Shown here: piece after piece, positions 4,214 through 50,299 of the stretch
Layout of the letters: each line of letters opens with the position of its first letter
How positions within the stretch are numbered: position 1 is the first letter of the stretch
Source: Desulfuromonadales bacterium
GTDB taxonomy: Bacteria > Desulfobacterota > Desulfuromonadia > Desulfuromonadales > BM103
Direction: 5' to 3'
NCBI GenBank assembly: GCA_030145195.1
Contig: JAQYVY010000004.1
Span: 1 to 64,000 of the forward strand
DNA length: 64,000 nt
The notes under the pieces: generated by a model
What the model saw: the letters and a program-made list of their open reading frames with translations, nothing else
Database searches by the model: none
Told to the model about the DNA's origin: nothing
Program-made: the position numbers and the translations under genes

Positions 4214-4243
4214 AACCGGCCGGCAAAAGCTTGCCGGCCGGGG
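4214..4243 (-). terminator. Terminator after the aminotransferase gene
   Basis: CCGGCCGGCAA at 4216-4226 pairs with TTGCCGGCCGG at 4231-4241 around a 4-nt loop. Read on the minus strand, the stem is followed by TTTGCT, a short U-run. It lies 26 bp after the aminotransferase stop. Confidence 0.6.
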
Positions 4244-4268: not shown

Positions 4269-5573
4269 TCACGAGTTAAGATATGTAGTGATGTTCGCGG
4301 CAATGTTCTTAAAGATTCGGGTAAAGGTGGCTTCGTCGCGTTCTAGCAGGGTAATGCGGAAACCAAGTTCGGGAGTAAAGAAGGACGAAAGCGGCACTAC
4401 GCAAATTCCGGTTGAGGCCAGCAGGTAGTAGACGAAGCGTTTATCAGCGGAACAGCCGGGCTGACTGACCAGGTTTTCGACCAATTCGAGCACTTCGGGA
4501 ATCTCAATCGGCAGAGTTTGCCGGTCATTGAGTTTTCCTTCCTTAAAGGCAACGCTCATGTAAAAGGCGCCGTTCGTCCGGTTGACCTTGATGCCGTGGA
4601 CTTTTTTGAGAATATCGTAGGCAATATTGGAGAACTTTTCGTAGCGGGTAACGCGTTTTTGCAGCCAGGCCGGATAGTCTGGATGGCTGAGGATCGGTGG
4701 AATCGCTTTCTGGGGGAGCGTTGTCGAACAGACCTCGACCATCTTCGTGTCGACAATGCTCTGGATGTAGCGTTTAAACATCGGATCCTTGTCGGCGTTA
4801 TAAACTTCGATCCATCCGCAGCGTGAACCGGGCCAGGGCAATTCCTTGCTGATTCCTTTCATGGAAATGGCTGGGACTTCGCCGATCAGATCGGAAATCG
4901 GCTTGGTTGATTCGCCGTTGTAGACCAGGTTGAGATAGATTTCATCACAGATAATGAAGAGATCGTACTCTTTGGCAATGGCGACAATCTCTTTCAAAAA
5001 ACGCTCAGGCCAGACCGCCCCGGTCGGATTGTCCGGGTTGATGATCAGGATGCCGGAAATGGTCGGATTGTATTTAATCGACAGGCGCAAGTCATCCAGG
5101 TCCGGGTACCAGTTGTTGTCTGGATCCAGACGATAACAGAGCGGTTTTTGCCCGGCGTGAGCGGCTTCTCCCGAGGAGTGCGTCGAATAGGTCGGCGAGG
5201 GGCCGATAACTCGAGCTTCCCGGCGCAGCAGGCCGTAGACCTTCTGGATGGCATCGCCCAGCCCATTGAAGAAAATAACGTCCTCGGCGGTGATCTGAGC
5301 CTTGCCGCGGCGGTTGGTTCTTTCGGCCAGGAACTCGCGCGTTTCCAAGATCCCTTTGGTGGCACAGTAGCCGTAGCTACAATCTTGCATTGCCAGATTG
5401 GCGACGATCTGCTTCATCCACTGGGGGATGTTCTCGCCTTTGGCAATGGGATCACCAATATTCTCCATATTGATGTCGATGCCGAGAGATTTGAGCTTTT
5501 CGGCAATTTCAACGATGGCACGGATTTCATAAGTCAGTTCGCCAGCACCTATGTGAACAATATTGTTGCGCAT
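4269..5573 (-). CDS. PLP-dependent aminotransferase, probable alanine aminotransferase (AlaA/AlaC-like)
   Basis: A 434-residue class I/II (fold type I) aminotransferase. Seen in the sequence: NPDNPTGAVWP (substrate and PLP phosphate region), IICDEIYLNLVY (Asp/Tyr contacting the PLP ring) and SMKGISKELPWPGSRCGW, where the Lys in ISKE is the Schiff-base residue and the PWPGSRCGW tail is typical of the aspartate/alanine branch. From family knowledge it would exchange amino groups between alanine or another amino acid and a 2-oxoacid. The alanine-rich leader peptide just upstream (5689-5796) supports alanine as the product. AAGGA precedes the ATG. Which amino acid it makes is inference. Confidence 0.8.
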   Translation of the reverse strand: MRNNIVHIGAGELTYEIRAIVEIAEKLKSLGIDINMENIGDPIAKGENIPQWMKQIVANLAMQDCSYGYCATKGILETREFLAERTNRRGKAQITAEDVIFFNGLGDAIQKVYGLLRREARVIGPSPTYSTHSSGEAAHAGQKPLCYRLDPDNNWYPDLDDLRLSIKYNPTISGILIINPDNPTGAVWPERFLKEIVAIAKEYDLFIICDEIYLNLVYNGESTKPISDLIGEVPAISMKGISKELPWPGSRCGWIEVYNADKDPMFKRYIQSIVDTKMVEVCSTTLPQKAIPPILSHPDYPAWLQKRVTRYEKFSNIAYDILKKVHGIKVNRTNGAFYMSVAFKEGKLNDRQTLPIEIPEVLELVENLVSQPGCSADKRFVYYLLASTGICVVPLSSFFTPELGFRITLLERDEATFTRIFKNIAANITTYLNS

Positions 5574-5638
5574 AATCAGGTTCCTTCCAGTCGTTACATG
5601 ATTCCTGAATCCGGCATTGAATCACAAATTCAGATAGT

Positions 5639-5669
5639 AAAAAGGCCATGAGCTATTGCCCATGGCCTT
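5639..5669 (-). terminator. Attenuator terminator upstream of the aminotransferase
   Basis: AAGGCCATG (5642-5650) pairs with CATGGCCTT (5661-5669); on the minus strand the stem is followed by TTTTT (5643-5639). It lies 63 nt before the aminotransferase ATG and 20 nt after the leader-peptide stop, so transcription from the only visible promoter must pass it. Two leader segments can compete with it: + strand caaggc at 5697-5702 is complementary to gccttg at 5665-5670, and ggcaatag at 5700-5707 to ctattgcc at 5653-5660. Confidence 0.75.
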
Positions 5670-5688
5670 GATTCGTTAAGAGCTAAAA

Positions 5689-5796
5689 TCAGCCTGCAAG
5701 GCAATAGGCAAAGATTCGGCGAGCAGTCGCCGCCGCGGCCGCGCTTTTCGCTCGGGCTGCTGATGAGGTGAAAGTTGTTGTTGCTGCCTTCAACAT
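5689..5796 (-). CDS. Alanine-rich leader peptide (35 aa), candidate transcription attenuator
   Basis: ATG at 5796 to TGA at 5689 encodes 35 residues: MLKAATTTFTSSAARAK, then SAAAAATARRIFAYCLAG. Thirteen are alanine, including five in a row at residues 19-23, and five are threonine. A strong Shine-Dalgarno (AAGGAAG) stands 5 nt before the ATG, and a sigma-70-like promoter lies about 40 nt upstream. The stop is 20 nt before the attenuator hairpin, and codons 30-34 overlap the segments able to act as antiterminator. This is the layout of classical amino-acid attenuators: scarce charged tRNA-Ala would stall the ribosome at residues 19-23, free the antiterminator and let transcription reach the aminotransferase. 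The peptide has no recognisable domain and is probably not functional as a protein. Confidence 0.75.
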   Translation of the reverse strand: MLKAATTTFTSSAARAKSAAAAATARRIFAYCLAG

Positions 5797-5834
5797 GTTT
5801 GCTTCCTTGCACATTTAAATTAAGGTTCTCGTCT

Positions 5835-5862
5835 GTTATCACAGCTTATCGTGAGGTGTCAA
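5835..5862 (-). promoter_or_regulatory. Promoter of the leader peptide/aminotransferase unit
   Basis: On the minus strand a perfect -35 TTGACA (+ strand 5857-5862) is followed after 16 bp by GATAAC (+ strand 5835-5840; 4 of 6 to consensus). Transcription would begin near 5828, giving a ~32-nt leader before the leader-peptide ATG. Confidence 0.6.
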
Positions 5863-43115: not shown

Positions 43116-43200
43116 CTCTCCGATAAGAGCAAAGCTGGGGCGACCCAGTGACGCAAAGCCTTGGATCACAACGATGTGATGGCCGGGCTGCCGAAGAGAG
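43116..43200 (+). ncRNA. GEMM-I riboswitch aptamer, A20 type (predicted cyclic AMP-GMP sensor)
   Basis: P1 closes with CTCTC (43116-43120) and GAGAG (43196-43200). The conserved AGAGCAAAG core is followed by a stem CTGGG/CCCAG capped by the GNRA loop GCGA (43140-43143), the invariant GACGCAAAGCC, a second stem ATCACA/TGTGAT (43165-43180) and GGCCGGGCTGCCGA (43181-43194). This matches the cyclic-dinucleotide-sensing GEMM-I class. By my alignment with the Vibrio Vc2 and Geobacter aptamers, the ligand-contacting position 20 is A43128; G at this site goes with c-di-GMP, A with 3',3'-cGAMP in Geobacter. An intrinsic terminator follows and then the autotransporter gene, so it is a transcriptional switch. 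Confidence 0.88.
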
Positions 43201-43300: not shown

Positions 43301-46300
43301 ATGCGAAACTTAGTGAAAATTTCCGGGCAACGCTACGCCCTGCTTCTTGCTTTAGGGCTGTTCACAGCCTTTGCAAATCCGGCTTTTGCTTTGAACATCG
43401 GCTACTATACGCTTTTAAGCCCGAGTTCAACAACTCCAGCGACAACAATAACAAATGGTGGTCACGCCCCTGTACAAATTACCACCTTATCAGGCGCTGA
43501 TCTGAGTTCACTTGATGTACTTTGGGTCCTTAATCCAAATAACTATGGTTACTCGTCGGACTATACGAGTAATCTCTCTGTCGTAGATAATTTTATTAAG
43601 AATGGTGGTGGCCTGTTATTCCATGACAGGCATGTAACGACTGCGGCAACAGCAATTCCCGGAGCTTCAGGGGTTTCTTTTCACCGTGCACCTGGGGCGA
43701 ACATTGACATTGCTGCTGGAGCAGAGGCTCTTGCGGCCCAGATGGGCATTACCAATACTTCATTAGATGGCGGGAATTGGTCCTATCATGGTTATGCCGA
43801 TCTGGCTTCTCTTCCCGCAACAGCAGTTCCTGTTCTCACAACGGGGATTGCAAACCAAATAGTCGACTTCAACTATAGCTATGGTGCTGGTAGCGTTTAT
43901 TATTCGTCAATTCCAATTGACCATTACATCGGGTTTGGAGGTAATCTCAATTTCAGTCAATATATCGGCAACCTTGTTGATGCCGTAGAAGAGACTGTTC
44001 TTCTCGACAATTTAATTGTTAATAATTCCGAGACCCATGAGCTCTCCGGAAGTGACCAAACATACGAGTGGGTCCGATTGCTTGACGGTGAGATTGTTGA
44101 CAGTGCTGCAACAAAAGGCCTTTTGACAGCAGACTCGGGCTATGACGTGCGGCTCGGCTCAATAAGCGCCAACCTTGCGGGCAGTGCCCTCACCAAAACC
44201 ACCTCCGGTCTGGTGACTCTCTCCGGCAACAACAGCTATACCGGCGGCACCTTATTGAATGACGGTAGCCTCAGTGTCAGCTCCGACAGCAACCTTGGTG
44301 ATGCTTCCGGAGCTTTAAATTTTGATGGCGGCACCCTGCAAATTACAGGGACGACGCTCAACAGTACCGCCCGTACAATCAACTGGGGTAGCGGTGGCGG
44401 TGGCTTCGACGTCGCCGATGCCGGCAATATGTTCACGGTTAGTCAGGTGTTGTCAGGAAGTGGCGGCCTAACCAAAGAGGGTGATGGCACTCTGGCCCTC
44501 TCTGGTGCGAACACTTACACCGGTGGCACCGCCATTAACGGCGGTATCATCCAGGTCAGCGCTGACAACAACCTCGGCGGCGGCAACATTTCATACAACA
44601 GCGGCACGCTGCAATATGCTGCTTTTTTCGATACGGCCAAGAACATGGCGCTCGAATCTCTGGGCGGAACGATTGATACCAACGGTTACGATTCAACCGC
44701 ATCGGGCGTGATTGCTGGTGACGGATCCTTGACCAAGGAGGGTGCTGGCACCTTGGCTCTTTCTGGTGCAAACACCTACACCGGTGGCACCGCCATCAAC
44801 GGCGGCACTGTCCAGGTCGGTGCTGACAACAACCTCGGCACCGGCGACATTGCTTACAACAGCGGGACACTGCAATATTCCGCCTCTTTCGATACCGCCA
44901 AGAACATGGCCCTCGAATCTCTGGGCGGCACCATCGATACCAACGGTTACGATTCAACCGCATCGGGCGTGATTGCTGGTGACGGATCCTTGACCAAGGA
45001 GGGCACGGGTAATCTGACCCTGACCGGCAACAACAGCTACTCTGGCGGCACCACGGTTTCCGCTGGCGTTTTGACCGGTAACACAGACAGCCTGCAAGGC
45101 GATATCGTCAATAATGCAGCCGTCGTCTTTGATCAAGCCGTTGCGGGCACCTACGCAGACGTCATGAGCGGCTCCGGTTCTCTGACCAAGAGCAACAGCG
45201 GCACCCTGTCCCTCTCTGGCACCAACAGCTACTCTGGTGGCACCGCCATCAACGGCGGCACAATCCAGTTAGGTGCCAACAATAACCTGGGAAGCGGCAA
45301 CATCTCATACAACAGCGGAACCCTGAGCCTCACAGGCAGCCTGACCATTGCCAACGACATGACCCTCGAATCGCTGGGCGGAACGATTGTCACTGGCACC
45401 AATCATTCAACCCTGTCCGGGGACATCTCCGGGTCGGGTTCGTTGACCAAGGAAGGGACGTGGAACTTAACCATGTCCGGGAACAACAGCTACTCCGGGG
45501 GGACAAACATTAATGGGGGAGCTGTCGTGGCCAGCGCGGCCAACAACCTGGGCACGGGAAATATCACCTACAACGGCGGCAGGCTGGAGTATGGCGCTAG
45601 TTTTGACCTCAACAAGGACATGCTGCTTTATTCCGGTGGAGGCAGCATTGTCACCAACGGATACAACTCGGCTATTTTTGGCGTGATCTCCGGAGATGGT
45701 TCTTTGACCAAATACGGTGATGGCACCCTCACTCTCTCTGGATCCAACACCTACACGGGATTAACGCATATTTCTGGCGGCACTTTGCAAACCGGAAAGG
45801 ATGAAGTCCTTTACAACTCGGCCTGGATAACACTCGGTCCCGGGGGCACCTTCGACCTCAACGATAATACCGAGAGAGTGGGATTGGTTAATGGAAATGG
45901 TCTCGTAGACATTGGTTCAGGACATCTCATTACCGGTGGTCTTGATGTCGGGGCTGCTTACGGTGGGGTTTTCATCGGAGATGGAACACTAACAAAAGAA
46001 GGGGACAGCACTTGGGGCCTCACAGGAGATCATAACAGCTTCACTGGAACCCTAAACATAAATCAAGGACGCATCAACCTGTTTGGTTCCAACGAAAGCA
46101 TCTACAACGGTCTCACTCTCAACGTCGGGGACAATAGTGCCGCTACGCTAGACATCAAAGGACGTATTGAAACGGTCGGTAGCGTGACCCTCGTCAATGG
46201 AACCCTGGAAGACGGTGTGGGTGGTGGTGAACTCACTGCTGCCAGCTACGACCTGCAGAACGGCACTGTCAATGCCGCCCTCGGAGCGGGCACCCTGTCA

Positions 46301-49300
46301 AAGACAACTGCTAACACGGTCGTTCTTAACGGCACAACAGACGCCGAAATTATTTACCTCAAAGAAGGCACTCTACAGCTGAATGACTCCGAGCGATTGG
46401 ACAACAGCAGTGCTGTCCACCTGCAGGGAGGCAGTCTGGATCTTCAGGGCTATGATGAGACCGTCGGGTACATCGACTCCAGTAGCTCGGGAGGAACCAT
46501 TGATGGCACGAGAACACTTCAGGCTGGTTACTACGGGTTCGGCGGCACCAACACTACAGTCAATGCTAACCTTGGCACAAACTCCCTCTATCAGTGGGGG
46601 GGCACGACGGTTCTGAATGGAACCAAGGGAAGTGGCTGGACACAAGTTTCTGCCGGAACGCTGAAAATCGGTGCAAATGAGCGACTCGATGACGAGAGCA
46701 TGGTTTCCGTGTCGACCGGTTCTCTCGACCTGAACGGAAAAACGGAAACGGTTACCGGCATTTCTCTCAATACTGGCGGTTCTCTGGACGACAGTGCTGG
46801 CAACGGATTGCTGATTGCGGGGACCTATGGTCTCACCGATGGTACGGTGAATGTAGACCTCGGAGGTGGCCTCCTCAGAAAAGTAACGGCAGGAACCGTG
46901 GTCCTGAACTCTTCTACCTTGGCGGAAACTGTCACAATAGAAGAAGGCACTCTGCAATTGGGCCAAGACGAGGCCCTCTACAACATGGCGACACTTACTG
47001 TCAGTGGCGGCAGCCTCAACCTCAATGGTTACACGGAAACGGTCAATAGCGCAGTCCTTAGCGGTGGAACCCTTGACGACACTGTTGGCAGCGGCCAGTT
47101 GACCGCTGAAACCTACAACCTGCAGTCCGGTGTCGTTAATGCTGCTTTGGGTGCGGGAGCGATCACTAAGACGACATTTGGCACGGTGGTGCTAAATGCG
47201 GCGACCCTGGCTTCGACCGTGGACGTCCAAGCTGGCATTCTGCAGTTGGACGAAGTTGACGTCCTGGATAATTTGGCAGCTTTGAGTGTCACCGGTGGCA
47301 GTCTGGACCTGAATGGCTTCACCGAAACCGTCAACAGTGTCGTGTTGGGCAGCGGTAGTCTGGACGACTCGGCTGGCGCGGGTCAGTTGATCGCCGAAAC
47401 TTACGAGCTGCAGTCCGGTGCCGTCAACGTGGCGCTGGGCGCGGGAGCCATCACCAAGACGAACATCGGCACCGTGACGTTAAATGCGGTAACTTTGGGC
47501 ACAACGGTAGACATCAGCGGTGGCATCCTGCAGCTGGCTGAGAACGAAGTGATCTACAACACGGCGGCCGTTACAGTGAACAACGGTACGCTGGACCTCA
47601 ACGATTACACCGAAACCATCGGTTCGCTGGCGGGCAGCGGTAATGTTGACCTGGGCGCGGGAGCGCTGACGGTTGGGGTGAATAACACTGACACCAACTT
47701 TGATGGCGTGATCAGCGGAACCGGTTCTGTGACCAAAGTCGGCCTTGGCACCATCGTCCTTGCCGGTAAAAACCTCTATAGCGGCAACACCACCGTAGCT
47801 GACGGCACCCTGCAGACCGGCGCCAGCGAAGTCTTGTACAACAGCGGCGTTCTGAATATTGTGACCGGCGGCAGCTTTGATGTTAATGGCAACGACGAGA
47901 CGGTTGGCACGGTCGCTCTTGTTGATGGTACGCTTGATGATAGTGCTGGTGGTGGCCTGTTGACTGCGGCCAGCTATCGATTAACATCTGGCACGGTGAA
48001 TGCCGCCCTGGGTGAGGGTTCGCTCGTTACTGGAGGAGGCACTGTTGTATTAAATGGCACCTCTGAAAGCAGCATCATTAGCCTTAACACTGGAACCTTG
48101 CAACTTGGAGCCTCTGAGCGGCTGCATAATAGCGCCACTCTTATTCCCTTTGGGGGCACACTTGACCTGCAAGGCTTTGATGAAACAATCGGTCAAATCG
48201 CAGGGAGCAGCTTTGGTCTAACGCTCAATGGCACCGGCACCCTTCAGGCCAATTCCTACAGCATGTGGAATGCAGTAATAAACGCCAACCTCGGCACAGG
48301 AACCTTGCGGCAATCTAATGGCACAACTATCCTGAATGGCTCCAAGGGTTCCGGCGATGTGAATATTGTGTCTGGGCTGTTACAGACCGGCAACAACGAG
48401 GTTATTTATAACTCTTCGGCTGTTACGGTTACAGGTTCCGGTCTTCTCGACATCAATGACCACACCGAAACGATCGGCTCTTTAGCTGGTGACGGTAGTG
48501 TCGATTTGGGCACGGGCTCTCTGACCACAGGCGGTAATGATACCAGCACCACCTTTGCCGGTACGATCAGTGGCGCTGGCGACTTGAACAAGATGGGTGC
48601 GGGCGTCTTCGATATGACAGGCGACAACAGTTTTGTTGGCACCACCACCATCTACAACGGCGCCCTGATGGTCAACGGCACCCTGGCTTCACACGTTATG
48701 AACATGGCCGACGGCCTGCTGGGGGGCAGTGGTACCATTGCCGGAAATGTGACCAACTATGGCACTCTGGCACCGGGCAATTCGATTGGAACCTTGACTG
48801 TCGGCAACTACAACTCCGCGATCGGCTCCATCTTTGAGGTTGAGGTTGACGCCGATGGCAACAGCGACCAGATCGCCACAACGGGTACGGCAACCATCAA
48901 CGGTGGTACGGTTGAGGTTTTGGCTCTTGGCGATGTGGTTGATTACAACCGCCGCACCATCTACAACGTGGTGACTGCCGACGGTGGCGTTGCCGGCAGC
49001 TACGAGGGCGTCACGGTCGATCTGGCCGAACTGACTCCGTTCCTTGCTTATGATGATCCCGACCTGGTGGAACTGATTCTGGTTCGCAACGATATCAACC
49101 TGGCTGAGATTGCTGCGGCTGAGACAGAAAACCAGAAGTCGGTGGCCGCGGTTCTGACCAAGGCGTCTCTGACCACCTTTGACGGCGACCTGGCCGAAGT
49201 GCTGGATGTGTTTGTCGACGAGCTGGATGAAGCTGGGCGGCGGGCAGCGCTGGACGAGCTGGGCGGGCAGAAACTACACACCGCTCTGCCCACGGCGGCC

Positions 49301-50299
49301 TTTGGTTTGATCGAGTCGTTCCAGGGCGCAGTCGGTAGCCGCATGAGCCGATTGCATCAGGCCAACCAGCAGGGCATGGCACAGATTGATCCGCTCGATG
49401 GCGTGCAGCTGGCCATGGCGGGCGACATTACCGACCTGGGCCCGCTCGACAGCAAGGGTCAACAAGACCAGAACCTGTGGGTCCATATGTATGGAGTCAA
49501 TGGTGACGTCGATAAAGACGAGAACGCCGCTGGTTATGACTACGATCTCTACGGCGCGGCTTTCGGTCTCGACTTTCCGGTAACCTCGCGCACCAACCTG
49601 GGTCTCACCGTTGGTTACGGTACGGCAGACGTCAAGACTGAACTGAATGATGTCGCCGACATCGAGAGTGTTCAGGTCGGCCTCTACAGCAACTATGAGA
49701 ACCAGGCCTTCTACCTCGATGGCTTGGTCTCTTACGCCGACAACAGCTACGACACCACCCGCGAGATTACCGTGGGCTCGATCACCGAAACCGCCACCGC
49801 CGATTACGACGGTAGCGAATGGGCGATTGCCGGTGAGATGGGTTACATCGGCACCGCCGGAGAGTACAATGTGCAGCCGTTCTTTGGCACCCGCTGGTTG
49901 CGTTTGGATGAAGACGGCTTTACCGAAAAGGGTGCTGGCAGCCTGAGCCTGCGGGTTGATGCCCGCACCGCCTACTCGTGGAAGATCTTCCCCGGTCTGC
50001 GCATCAGCCGTCCGGTGAAGACCGGCGAGCAGAGCTACTTCATTCCGCAAGCCAGCATGAAGCTGATCCGGGAATTGCGCGATAACAATGACACCGTCAG
50101 CGCCAGCTTTGCGGGTGCGCCTTCAGCAGGCAGCTTCCAGGTTGAAGGTGTCGACATTGATCGCAGCAGCATCGAACTCGGTGCCGGCTTCAAGGTTCTG
50201 GACAAAGGGACGTTGCAGGTGAACCTGGATGTCACGACCGAGATTAATGACGAGAGAACAGCGCATAGTGTCAATGGTGGTTTCAAACTGCTCTGGTAA
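43301..50299 (+). CDS. Giant autotransporter adhesin (type Va) with N-terminal amidotransferase-like domain
   Basis: 2332 residues, AAGGAG upstream. Signal peptide 1-30 (cut after NPAFA). Residues ~31-230 form an alpha/beta domain like ThuA/class I amidotransferase folds (LDVLWVLNPNNYGYSSDY, FIKNGGGLLFHDRHV). From ~270 to ~1950 the passenger consists of beta-helix repeats: autotransporter-associated GTLALSGANTYTGGT units first, then ~80-residue GTLDDSAGxGxLTA / SLDLNGYTETV units. A linker with DEAGRRAALDELGGQKLHT precedes the C-terminal beta-barrel (~2055-2332), which begins near NLWVHMYGVNGDVD and ends in the aromatic residue of FKLLW. It would translocate its own passenger across the outer membrane for adhesion or biofilm. 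No protease motif is obvious. Expression is set by the riboswitch upstream. Confidence 0.93.
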   Translation: MRNLVKISGQRYALLLALGLFTAFANPAFALNIGYYTLLSPSSTTPATTITNGGHAPVQITTLSGADLSSLDVLWVLNPNNYGYSSDYTSNLSVVDNFIKNGGGLLFHDRHVTTAATAIPGASGVSFHRAPGANIDIAAGAEALAAQMGITNTSLDGGNWSYHGYADLASLPATAVPVLTTGIANQIVDFNYSYGAGSVYYSSIPIDHYIGFGGNLNFSQYIGNLVDAVEETVLLDNLIVNNSETHELSGSDQTYEWVRLLDGEIVDSAATKGLLTADSGYDVRLGSISANLAGSALTKTTSGLVTLSGNNSYTGGTLLNDGSLSVSSDSNLGDASGALNFDGGTLQITGTTLNSTARTINWGSGGGGFDVADAGNMFTVSQVLSGSGGLTKEGDGTLALSGANTYTGGTAINGGIIQVSADNNLGGGNISYNSGTLQYAAFFDTAKNMALESLGGTIDTNGYDSTASGVIAGDGSLTKEGAGTLALSGANTYTGGTAINGGTVQVGADNNLGTGDIAYNSGTLQYSASFDTAKNMALESLGGTIDTNGYDSTASGVIAGDGSLTKEGTGNLTLTGNNSYSGGTTVSAGVLTGNTDSLQGDIVNNAAVVFDQAVAGTYADVMSGSGSLTKSNSGTLSLSGTNSYSGGTAINGGTIQLGANNNLGSGNISYNSGTLSLTGSLTIANDMTLESLGGTIVTGTNHSTLSGDISGSGSLTKEGTWNLTMSGNNSYSGGTNINGGAVVASAANNLGTGNITYNGGRLEYGASFDLNKDMLLYSGGGSIVTNGYNSAIFGVISGDGSLTKYGDGTLTLSGSNTYTGLTHISGGTLQTGKDEVLYNSAWITLGPGGTFDLNDNTERVGLVNGNGLVDIGSGHLITGGLDVGAAYGGVFIGDGTLTKEGDSTWGLTGDHNSFTGTLNINQGRINLFGSNESIYNGLTLNVGDNSAATLDIKGRIETVGSVTLVNGTLEDGVGGGELTAASYDLQNGTVNAALGAGTLSKTTANTVVLNGTTDAEIIYLKEGTLQLNDSERLDNSSAVHLQGGSLDLQGYDETVGYIDSSSSGGTIDGTRTLQAGYYGFGGTNTTVNANLGTNSLYQWGGTTVLNGTKGSGWTQVSAGTLKIGANERLDDESMVSVSTGSLDLNGKTETVTGISLNTGGSLDDSAGNGLLIAGTYGLTDGTVNVDLGGGLLRKVTAGTVVLNSSTLAETVTIEEGTLQLGQDEALYNMATLTVSGGSLNLNGYTETVNSAVLSGGTLDDTVGSGQLTAETYNLQSGVVNAALGAGAITKTTFGTVVLNAATLASTVDVQAGILQLDEVDVLDNLAALSVTGGSLDLNGFTETVNSVVLGSGSLDDSAGAGQLIAETYELQSGAVNVALGAGAITKTNIGTVTLNAVTLGTTVDISGGILQLAENEVIYNTAAVTVNNGTLDLNDYTETIGSLAGSGNVDLGAGALTVGVNNTDTNFDGVISGTGSVTKVGLGTIVLAGKNLYSGNTTVADGTLQTGASEVLYNSGVLNIVTGGSFDVNGNDETVGTVALVDGTLDDSAGGGLLTAASYRLTSGTVNAALGEGSLVTGGGTVVLNGTSESSIISLNTGTLQLGASERLHNSATLIPFGGTLDLQGFDETIGQIAGSSFGLTLNGTGTLQANSYSMWNAVINANLGTGTLRQSNGTTILNGSKGSGDVNIVSGLLQTGNNEVIYNSSAVTVTGSGLLDINDHTETIGSLAGDGSVDLGTGSLTTGGNDTSTTFAGTISGAGDLNKMGAGVFDMTGDNSFVGTTTIYNGALMVNGTLASHVMNMADGLLGGSGTIAGNVTNYGTLAPGNSIGTLTVGNYNSAIGSIFEVEVDADGNSDQIATTGTATINGGTVEVLALGDVVDYNRRTIYNVVTADGGVAGSYEGVTVDLAELTPFLAYDDPDLVELILVRNDINLAEIAAAETENQKSVAAVLTKASLTTFDGDLAEVLDVFVDELDEAGRRAALDELGGQKLHTALPTAAFGLIESFQGAVGSRMSRLHQANQQGMAQIDPLDGVQLAMAGDITDLGPLDSKGQQDQNLWVHMYGVNGDVDKDENAAGYDYDLYGAAFGLDFPVTSRTNLGLTVGYGTADVKTELNDVADIESVQVGLYSNYENQAFYLDGLVSYADNSYDTTREITVGSITETATADYDGSEWAIAGEMGYIGTAGEYNVQPFFGTRWLRLDEDGFTEKGAGSLSLRVDARTAYSWKIFPGLRISRPVKTGEQSYFIPQASMKLIRELRDNNDTVSASFAGAPSAGSFQVEGVDIDRSSIELGAGFKVLDKGTLQVNLDVTTEINDERTAHSVNGGFKLLW
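44462..44983 (+). repeat. Two tandem 261-bp repeat units inside the autotransporter gene
   Basis: Unit 1 at 44462-44722 and unit 2 at 44723-44983 encode 87 residues each with roughly 77 identical. The end of each unit plus the following bases (44675-44742 and 44936-45003) are identical over 68 bp. This points to recent duplication. Confidence 0.85.

Follow-up and report, generated by a model that had tools for sequence, protein, structure and literature searches.

A proposed alanine-codon attenuator in front of an aminotransferase gene in Desulfuromonadales and their relatives

In the DNA of a Desulfuromonadales bacterium, a gene coding for an aminotransferase is preceded by a short open reading frame rich in alanine codons, which is itself followed by a transcription terminator. 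Which signal might such an arrangement read, and how would it pass the signal on to the gene? The analysis started from a stretch of 64,000 nucleotides (hereafter the window) and was extended to orthologous loci from whole genomes. Very probably, the locus holds a ribosome-mediated attenuator by which the availability of alanyl-tRNA controls a single aminotransferase gene; the product of this gene is probably a glutamate-pyruvate (alanine) transaminase.

The leader region and the gene that it precedes

All the elements of the locus are on the minus strand. The promoter (5835–5862) consists of a TTGACA box (5862–5857), a 16 nt spacer and a GATAAC box (5840–5835), with a TG before the −10 box. 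TTGACA-16-GATAAC is not listed by a consensus promoter scan of the window, because GATAAC has no final T. A −35/−10 pair of the form TTGAC(A/T)/TGnTAA is kept in the relatives at the matching upstream position. The Shine-Dalgarno sequence of the leader, AAGGA, is at 5804–5808, and GGA(G) is common upstream of the leader ATG in the alignment of the relatives.

The leader reading frame (5689–5796) starts with the ATG at 5796, ends with the stop codon at 5691–5689 and codes for a 35-residue peptide, MLKAATTTFTSSAARAKSAAAAATARRIFAYCLAG, which contains 13 alanines; a second in-frame ATG is present at 5814. Residues 19–23 are encoded by five consecutive Ala codons (5728–5742), which are the proposed stall site, and residue 15 is an arginine encoded by CGA (5752–5754). 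A strong intrinsic terminator with a 12 bp stem and an AATA loop follows at 5642–5669; the terminator scan of the window gave four hits, and the stem of this one is the longest. The promoter, the Shine-Dalgarno sequence, the 35-codon leader with its 13 Ala codons and the terminator are thus all present where the initial annotation had placed them on the minus strand.

The annotation had also predicted that an aminotransferase of the AlaA/AspC type lies downstream, and a gene coding for a 434-residue aminotransferase does start with the ATG at 5573 (4269–5573). The protein belongs to the PRK06855 family (NCBIfam NF005334, 749 bits for a cut-off of 443), for which NCBIfam names no substrate. The solved structure closest to it is 4cvq (E=3.6e-43), which we take to be that of AlaA, the glutamate-pyruvate aminotransferase of E. 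coli, followed by the putative transaminase 1xi9. The next best NCBIfam model is that of an alanine aminotransferase, PRK08363, with a score of 183 bits that is below its cut-off of 534, so that alanine is only a presumed product of the enzyme. The same query retrieves four other aminotransferases from the window's genome, which fall into other NCBIfam groups or do not reach the cut-offs. Alanine dehydrogenase (TIGR00518) was not found in this genome (G000, 99.95% complete); it is above the cut-off in 28 of the 31 genomes of the search. This absence speaks in favour of the alanine reading, and the presence of the dehydrogenase in most relatives speaks against it. In these bacteria, the enzyme probably serves as the glutamate-pyruvate (alanine) transaminase.

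The aminotransferase gene is probably transcribed alone, because a strong hairpin and a T run follow its end: a probable terminator, CCGGCCGGCAA-GCTT-TTGCCGGCCGG then TTTG, is found at 4241–4216 on the same strand.

Elsewhere in the window, on the plus strand, a c-di-GMP-I riboswitch (43118–43195, 61.6 bits) is located about 100 bases before a 2332-residue reading frame (43301–50299), which has many repeats and looks like an autotransporter-type adhesin.

Conservation of the leader and selection on its alanine codons

A lack of conservation in the relatives had been named beforehand as a result that would speak against the attenuator. Among orthologues with an intact 5′ end, collected from whole genomes, an Ala-rich leader and a terminator precede the aminotransferase gene in 108 of the 118 loci examined in the class, and in 8 of 29 loci outside the class. 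The first set of loci in the class gave 105 of 113, and in these the leader ends a few tens of bases before the terminator. The eight others (L040 and L064–L070) have neither leader nor terminator and all come from one family of the order, members of which have lost both; several of these loci retain a promoter directly upstream of the aminotransferase gene. Five further loci from a sister order were added to this set: three have the leader and two do not.

Outside the class, 29 loci have a correct 5′ end; 21 of these are without a leader and eight have one (L118, L119, L122, L123, L126, L130, L132 and L133). Judging from the records that carry a name, the leader occurs in Desulfuromonas, Geoalkalibacter, Geothermobacter, Geopsychrobacter, Malonomonas and Deferrisomatales, and the named homologues from Desulfobulbaceae, Syntrophaceae and Bacteroidota (Cyclobacteriaceae and others) have none. 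When the procedure that selects the best reading frame is applied to loci devoid of the element, as a negative control, it returns at most four Ala per eight codons.

A search of 117 genomes with a 20-base pattern taken from the conserved core gives at most one match per genome, and the matches that could be placed are all at the aminotransferase locus, except one (G161). In these genomes the pattern, which is strict and does not match even the window, gives no indication that the element also precedes other genes.

The alanine content of the leader is more than chance would give: when the reading frame is shuffled with its dinucleotides kept, 5.4 ± 1.9 alanines are obtained instead of 13, and only 1 of 5000 shuffles reaches as high a count. 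Among the relatives, alanine makes up 30% of the leader residues in the open frame, versus 7% and 5% in the two other frames. The core Ala columns are 90–92% conserved and use several Ala codons, in places all four. In the codon alignment, the pairwise difference in Ala columns is 0.26, 0.23 and 0.63 at codon positions 1, 2 and 3, respectively. The first two bases are conserved and the third takes all four possibilities, so that it is the Ala codons themselves that are selected. This pattern, seen by comparing sequences, fits selection on the amino acid or on its tRNAs, and not on the RNA sequence.

A free third base does not separate the counting of codons from an effect of the peptide itself. 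The nascent chain, with its A-R-A-x-x-A-A-A motif, might stall the ribosome from within the exit tunnel in response to alanine or some other small molecule, and the antiterminator would be unchanged. The geometry expected from a stall of this kind is no different, and the arginine before the Ala run is 88% conserved, with an alanine following it in 90% of the cases. On the other hand, this arginine is replaced by Gln or Glu in some leaders, one subgroup has only AAAAR, and the variable number and spacing of the alanines suit codon counting better than a sequence that binds in the tunnel. An arrest peptide is therefore improbable, even if it is the alternative that holds up best.

The codon used for the conserved arginine is itself biased. 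At this position, column 49 of the leader codon alignment, CGA is used by 82 of 105 leaders, although it makes up about 9% of the Arg codons in the long reading frames of the window. Perhaps CGA is preferred in the leader as a slow codon, or because of a contact made by the RNA.

Conservation at the nucleotide level just upstream of the Ala run, where the (C)GAGC motif is kept, together with the presence of a terminator platform, would also be compatible with a riboswitch or a protein-binding RNA in which the reading frame is incidental. Against this are the codon periodicity, the conservation of the start codon and the confinement of alanine to the open frame. At gathering score, no Rfam family matches the locus of the window or that of any of 17 relatives, and a permissive Rfam scan gave hits at chance level only. 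In particular, covariance models of the amino-acid leaders (His, Trp, Thr, Leu and others) and of the T-box riboswitch have no match at the locus in this set. A purely RNA-based sensor is thus even less probable than an arrest peptide.

Terminator, antiterminator and the proposed switch

The terminator reads AAGGCCATGGGC-AATA-GCTCATGGCCTT (5669–5642, minus strand), and a U-tract (5641–5639) comes after the hairpin. In an alignment of 43 leaders, its helix is paired in 98% of the cells and two-sided changes are seen at 7 of the 12 pairs, a level that is matched by none of 500 shuffles. The leader terminator therefore covaries strongly.

The antiterminator is a single helix of about 14 pairs, which joins the last codons of the leader to the 5′ arm of the terminator. 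Its 5′ strand, region 2, lies within the last leader codons (5697–5711), and its 3′ strand, region 3, overlaps the 5′ arm and the loop of the terminator (5656–5670). The duplex between UUGCCUAU-U-GCCUUG (5711–5697) and CAAGGC-C-AUGGGCAA (5670–5656) has a calculated energy of −20.6 kcal/mol, and equivalent duplexes are present at most of the relatives' loci. The initial annotation had proposed two pairings. That between 5697–5702 and 5665–5670 is real and is one half of this longer helix. The second, between 5700–5707 and 5653–5660, uses bases that already belong to this helix and is not conserved among the relatives, and we have discarded it. At most loci the helix has a single mispaired base in its middle, which perhaps keeps the antiterminator weaker than the terminator.

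Covarying stems had been anticipated in the relatives. The terminator bears this out, and the antiterminator does so between clades, the signal within clades being weak or not significant. Among 76 leaders from three clades, 50 cells with a double change were counted in region 2/3, compared to 14.6 ± 6.2 when partners were shuffled across clades (0 of 500 shuffles as high); the main switches are from C-G to U-A and from U-A to C-G. The observed count is reached when the partners of these 76 leaders are shuffled within clades, and in the MAFFT alignment of one order the covariation of region 2/3 is not above that of shuffles. The signal between clades rests on few evolutionary events. The comparison of leaders supports the predicted antiterminator helix by its conserved complementarity and by these few compensations between clades.

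The small-protein explanation, that the leader encodes a functional product with its own terminator and that the aminotransferase gene is transcribed by read-through only, is the least probable of all: a short reading frame and a terminator are the anatomy of any small gene, but conservation is confined here to the Ala/Arg core and the RNA pairings, the first residues and most of those at the C terminus are not conserved as protein, the length of the leader ranges from 21 residues upward, and the last codons of the frame pair with the arm of the terminator.

The leaders were folded with the ribosome placed at two positions. With the ribosome at the stop codon, 104 of the 105 leaders form the terminator. 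When it is in the middle of the Ala cluster, and the RNA considered is that which is exposed before the 3′ arm of the terminator exists, regions 2 and 3 pair in 97 of 105 leaders (median 12 pairs), compared to 58% in a control in which the upstream sequence is shuffled. In the main clade, region 2 sits from about 24 to 7 nt before the end of the stop codon, and the median distance between the middle Ala codon and the end of the stop is 51 nt. As far as geometry goes, a ribosome at the stop codon would mask region 2, and a ribosome in the Ala run would not.

The alanine attenuator would then work as follows. RNA polymerase would start downstream of the promoter at 5862–5835 and a trailing ribosome would translate the leader. 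If alanyl-tRNA is ample, the ribosome would reach the stop codon and cover region 2 in the last codons of the leader; region 3 could then pair only with region 4, the terminator would form and transcription would stop. If alanyl-tRNA is scarce, the ribosome would stall about 50 nt before that point, within the Ala run, and leave region 2 free to pair with region 3 as it emerges, which would block the terminator and allow the transcription of the aminotransferase gene. The switch would in this way respond to alanine. The attenuator put forward in the initial annotation is supported by the conserved leader, the selection on Ala codons, the antiterminator helix and the covariation of the terminator; only the detail of the pairing has been corrected.

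A conserved protector (1:2) hairpin in the Ala run is not supported, the mean z values of −0.17 and +0.18 relative to synonymous-codon shuffles giving no signal. Complementary stems of local hairpins around the Ala run are visible in some clades. No general 1:2 helix was found, nor any excess stability over the synonymous-codon shuffles.

Sister-order variants and relation to known systems

In the sister order, the leader begins closer to its promoter. Counted from the first base of the −35 box, the leader ATG is 36–38 nt away in the 19 of 20 leaders (L098–L117) that could be measured automatically; the last one, judged by eye, gives about 35 nt. The median in the leaders from elsewhere is 58 nt. 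With ordinary promoter spacing, a distance of 36–38 nt means that transcription would start on the ATG or right beside it, so that the mRNA would be leaderless and the sister-order leader peptide is probably translated from such a transcript. A subgroup of these loci (L099, L100, L106, L107 and L109) has a short leader with only 4–5 Ala codons, and pairing between regions 2 and 3 is weak or misplaced in it. The broader proposal, that the alanine attenuator is old and shared beyond the class and that in the sister order its ATG lies at most 2 bases from the start of transcription, with initiation independent of a Shine-Dalgarno sequence and perhaps pacing by CGA, stands at about even odds in our estimate.

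The attenuator specificities covered by Rfam are His, Leu, Thr and Trp, to which PMC3766115 adds Ile/Val and Phe; alanine is not listed there. In Actinobacteria, trp, leu, ilv and cys leaders are described (PMC1262725). The statement that no alanine attenuator is well described agrees with the open full-text literature, in which none was found; two earlier surveys of attenuation fall outside the literature compared, so that priority is not certain.

Compared to the trp, his, phe, thr, leu and ilv attenuators of Proteobacteria, the present element also has a leader rich in regulatory codons and a switch between antiterminator and terminator, and the position of the ribosome would likewise be the signal. 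It differs by its alanine codons, by its target, which is probably a single gene, in that no general 1:2 helix was found among the leaders compared, and by the phylum in which it occurs. The uORFC-8-2 leader, which precedes cysS in Rhodobacterales (PMC8632094), likewise combines a terminator with a recently found upstream reading frame whose codon specificity is new, but it is specific for cysteine, it is upstream of a tRNA synthetase gene and it is found in alphaproteobacteria. The Corynebacterium ilvB-II upstream reading frame (PMC10272879) is again part of an attenuator with a terminator; its codons are those of branched-chain amino acids and the sequences are unrelated. According to the title of Morbach 2000, as cited in PMC10272879, a leader peptide of C. 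glutamicum is made without a ribosome binding site, which would be comparable with the leaderless form proposed here.

The aspC motif SRC-45-1 (PMC11109978) is similarly located upstream of a putative aminotransferase gene; it differs, by its description only, in that it is a three-stem junction right before the start codon and comes nearly all from environmental DNA. T-box riboswitches also sense the charging of tRNA and act on a terminator and an antiterminator; unlike the element described here, the T-box binds the tRNA directly.

The locus thus very probably holds a widely conserved switch of a known kind with what seems to be a new amino-acid specificity, alanine, together with a probable leaderless variant. 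Alanine would join the few amino acids for which leader-peptide attenuators are known, and such attenuators would extend through Desulfuromonadales and their relatives, where we found few described. The leader also provides a functional prediction, the synthesis of alanine, for an aminotransferase family that has no assigned substrate. The variants (the leaderless form, the four-Ala leaders, and the genera where the leader is lost and the promoter kept) may serve as a natural test set for the number of codons and the structure that such a switch needs.
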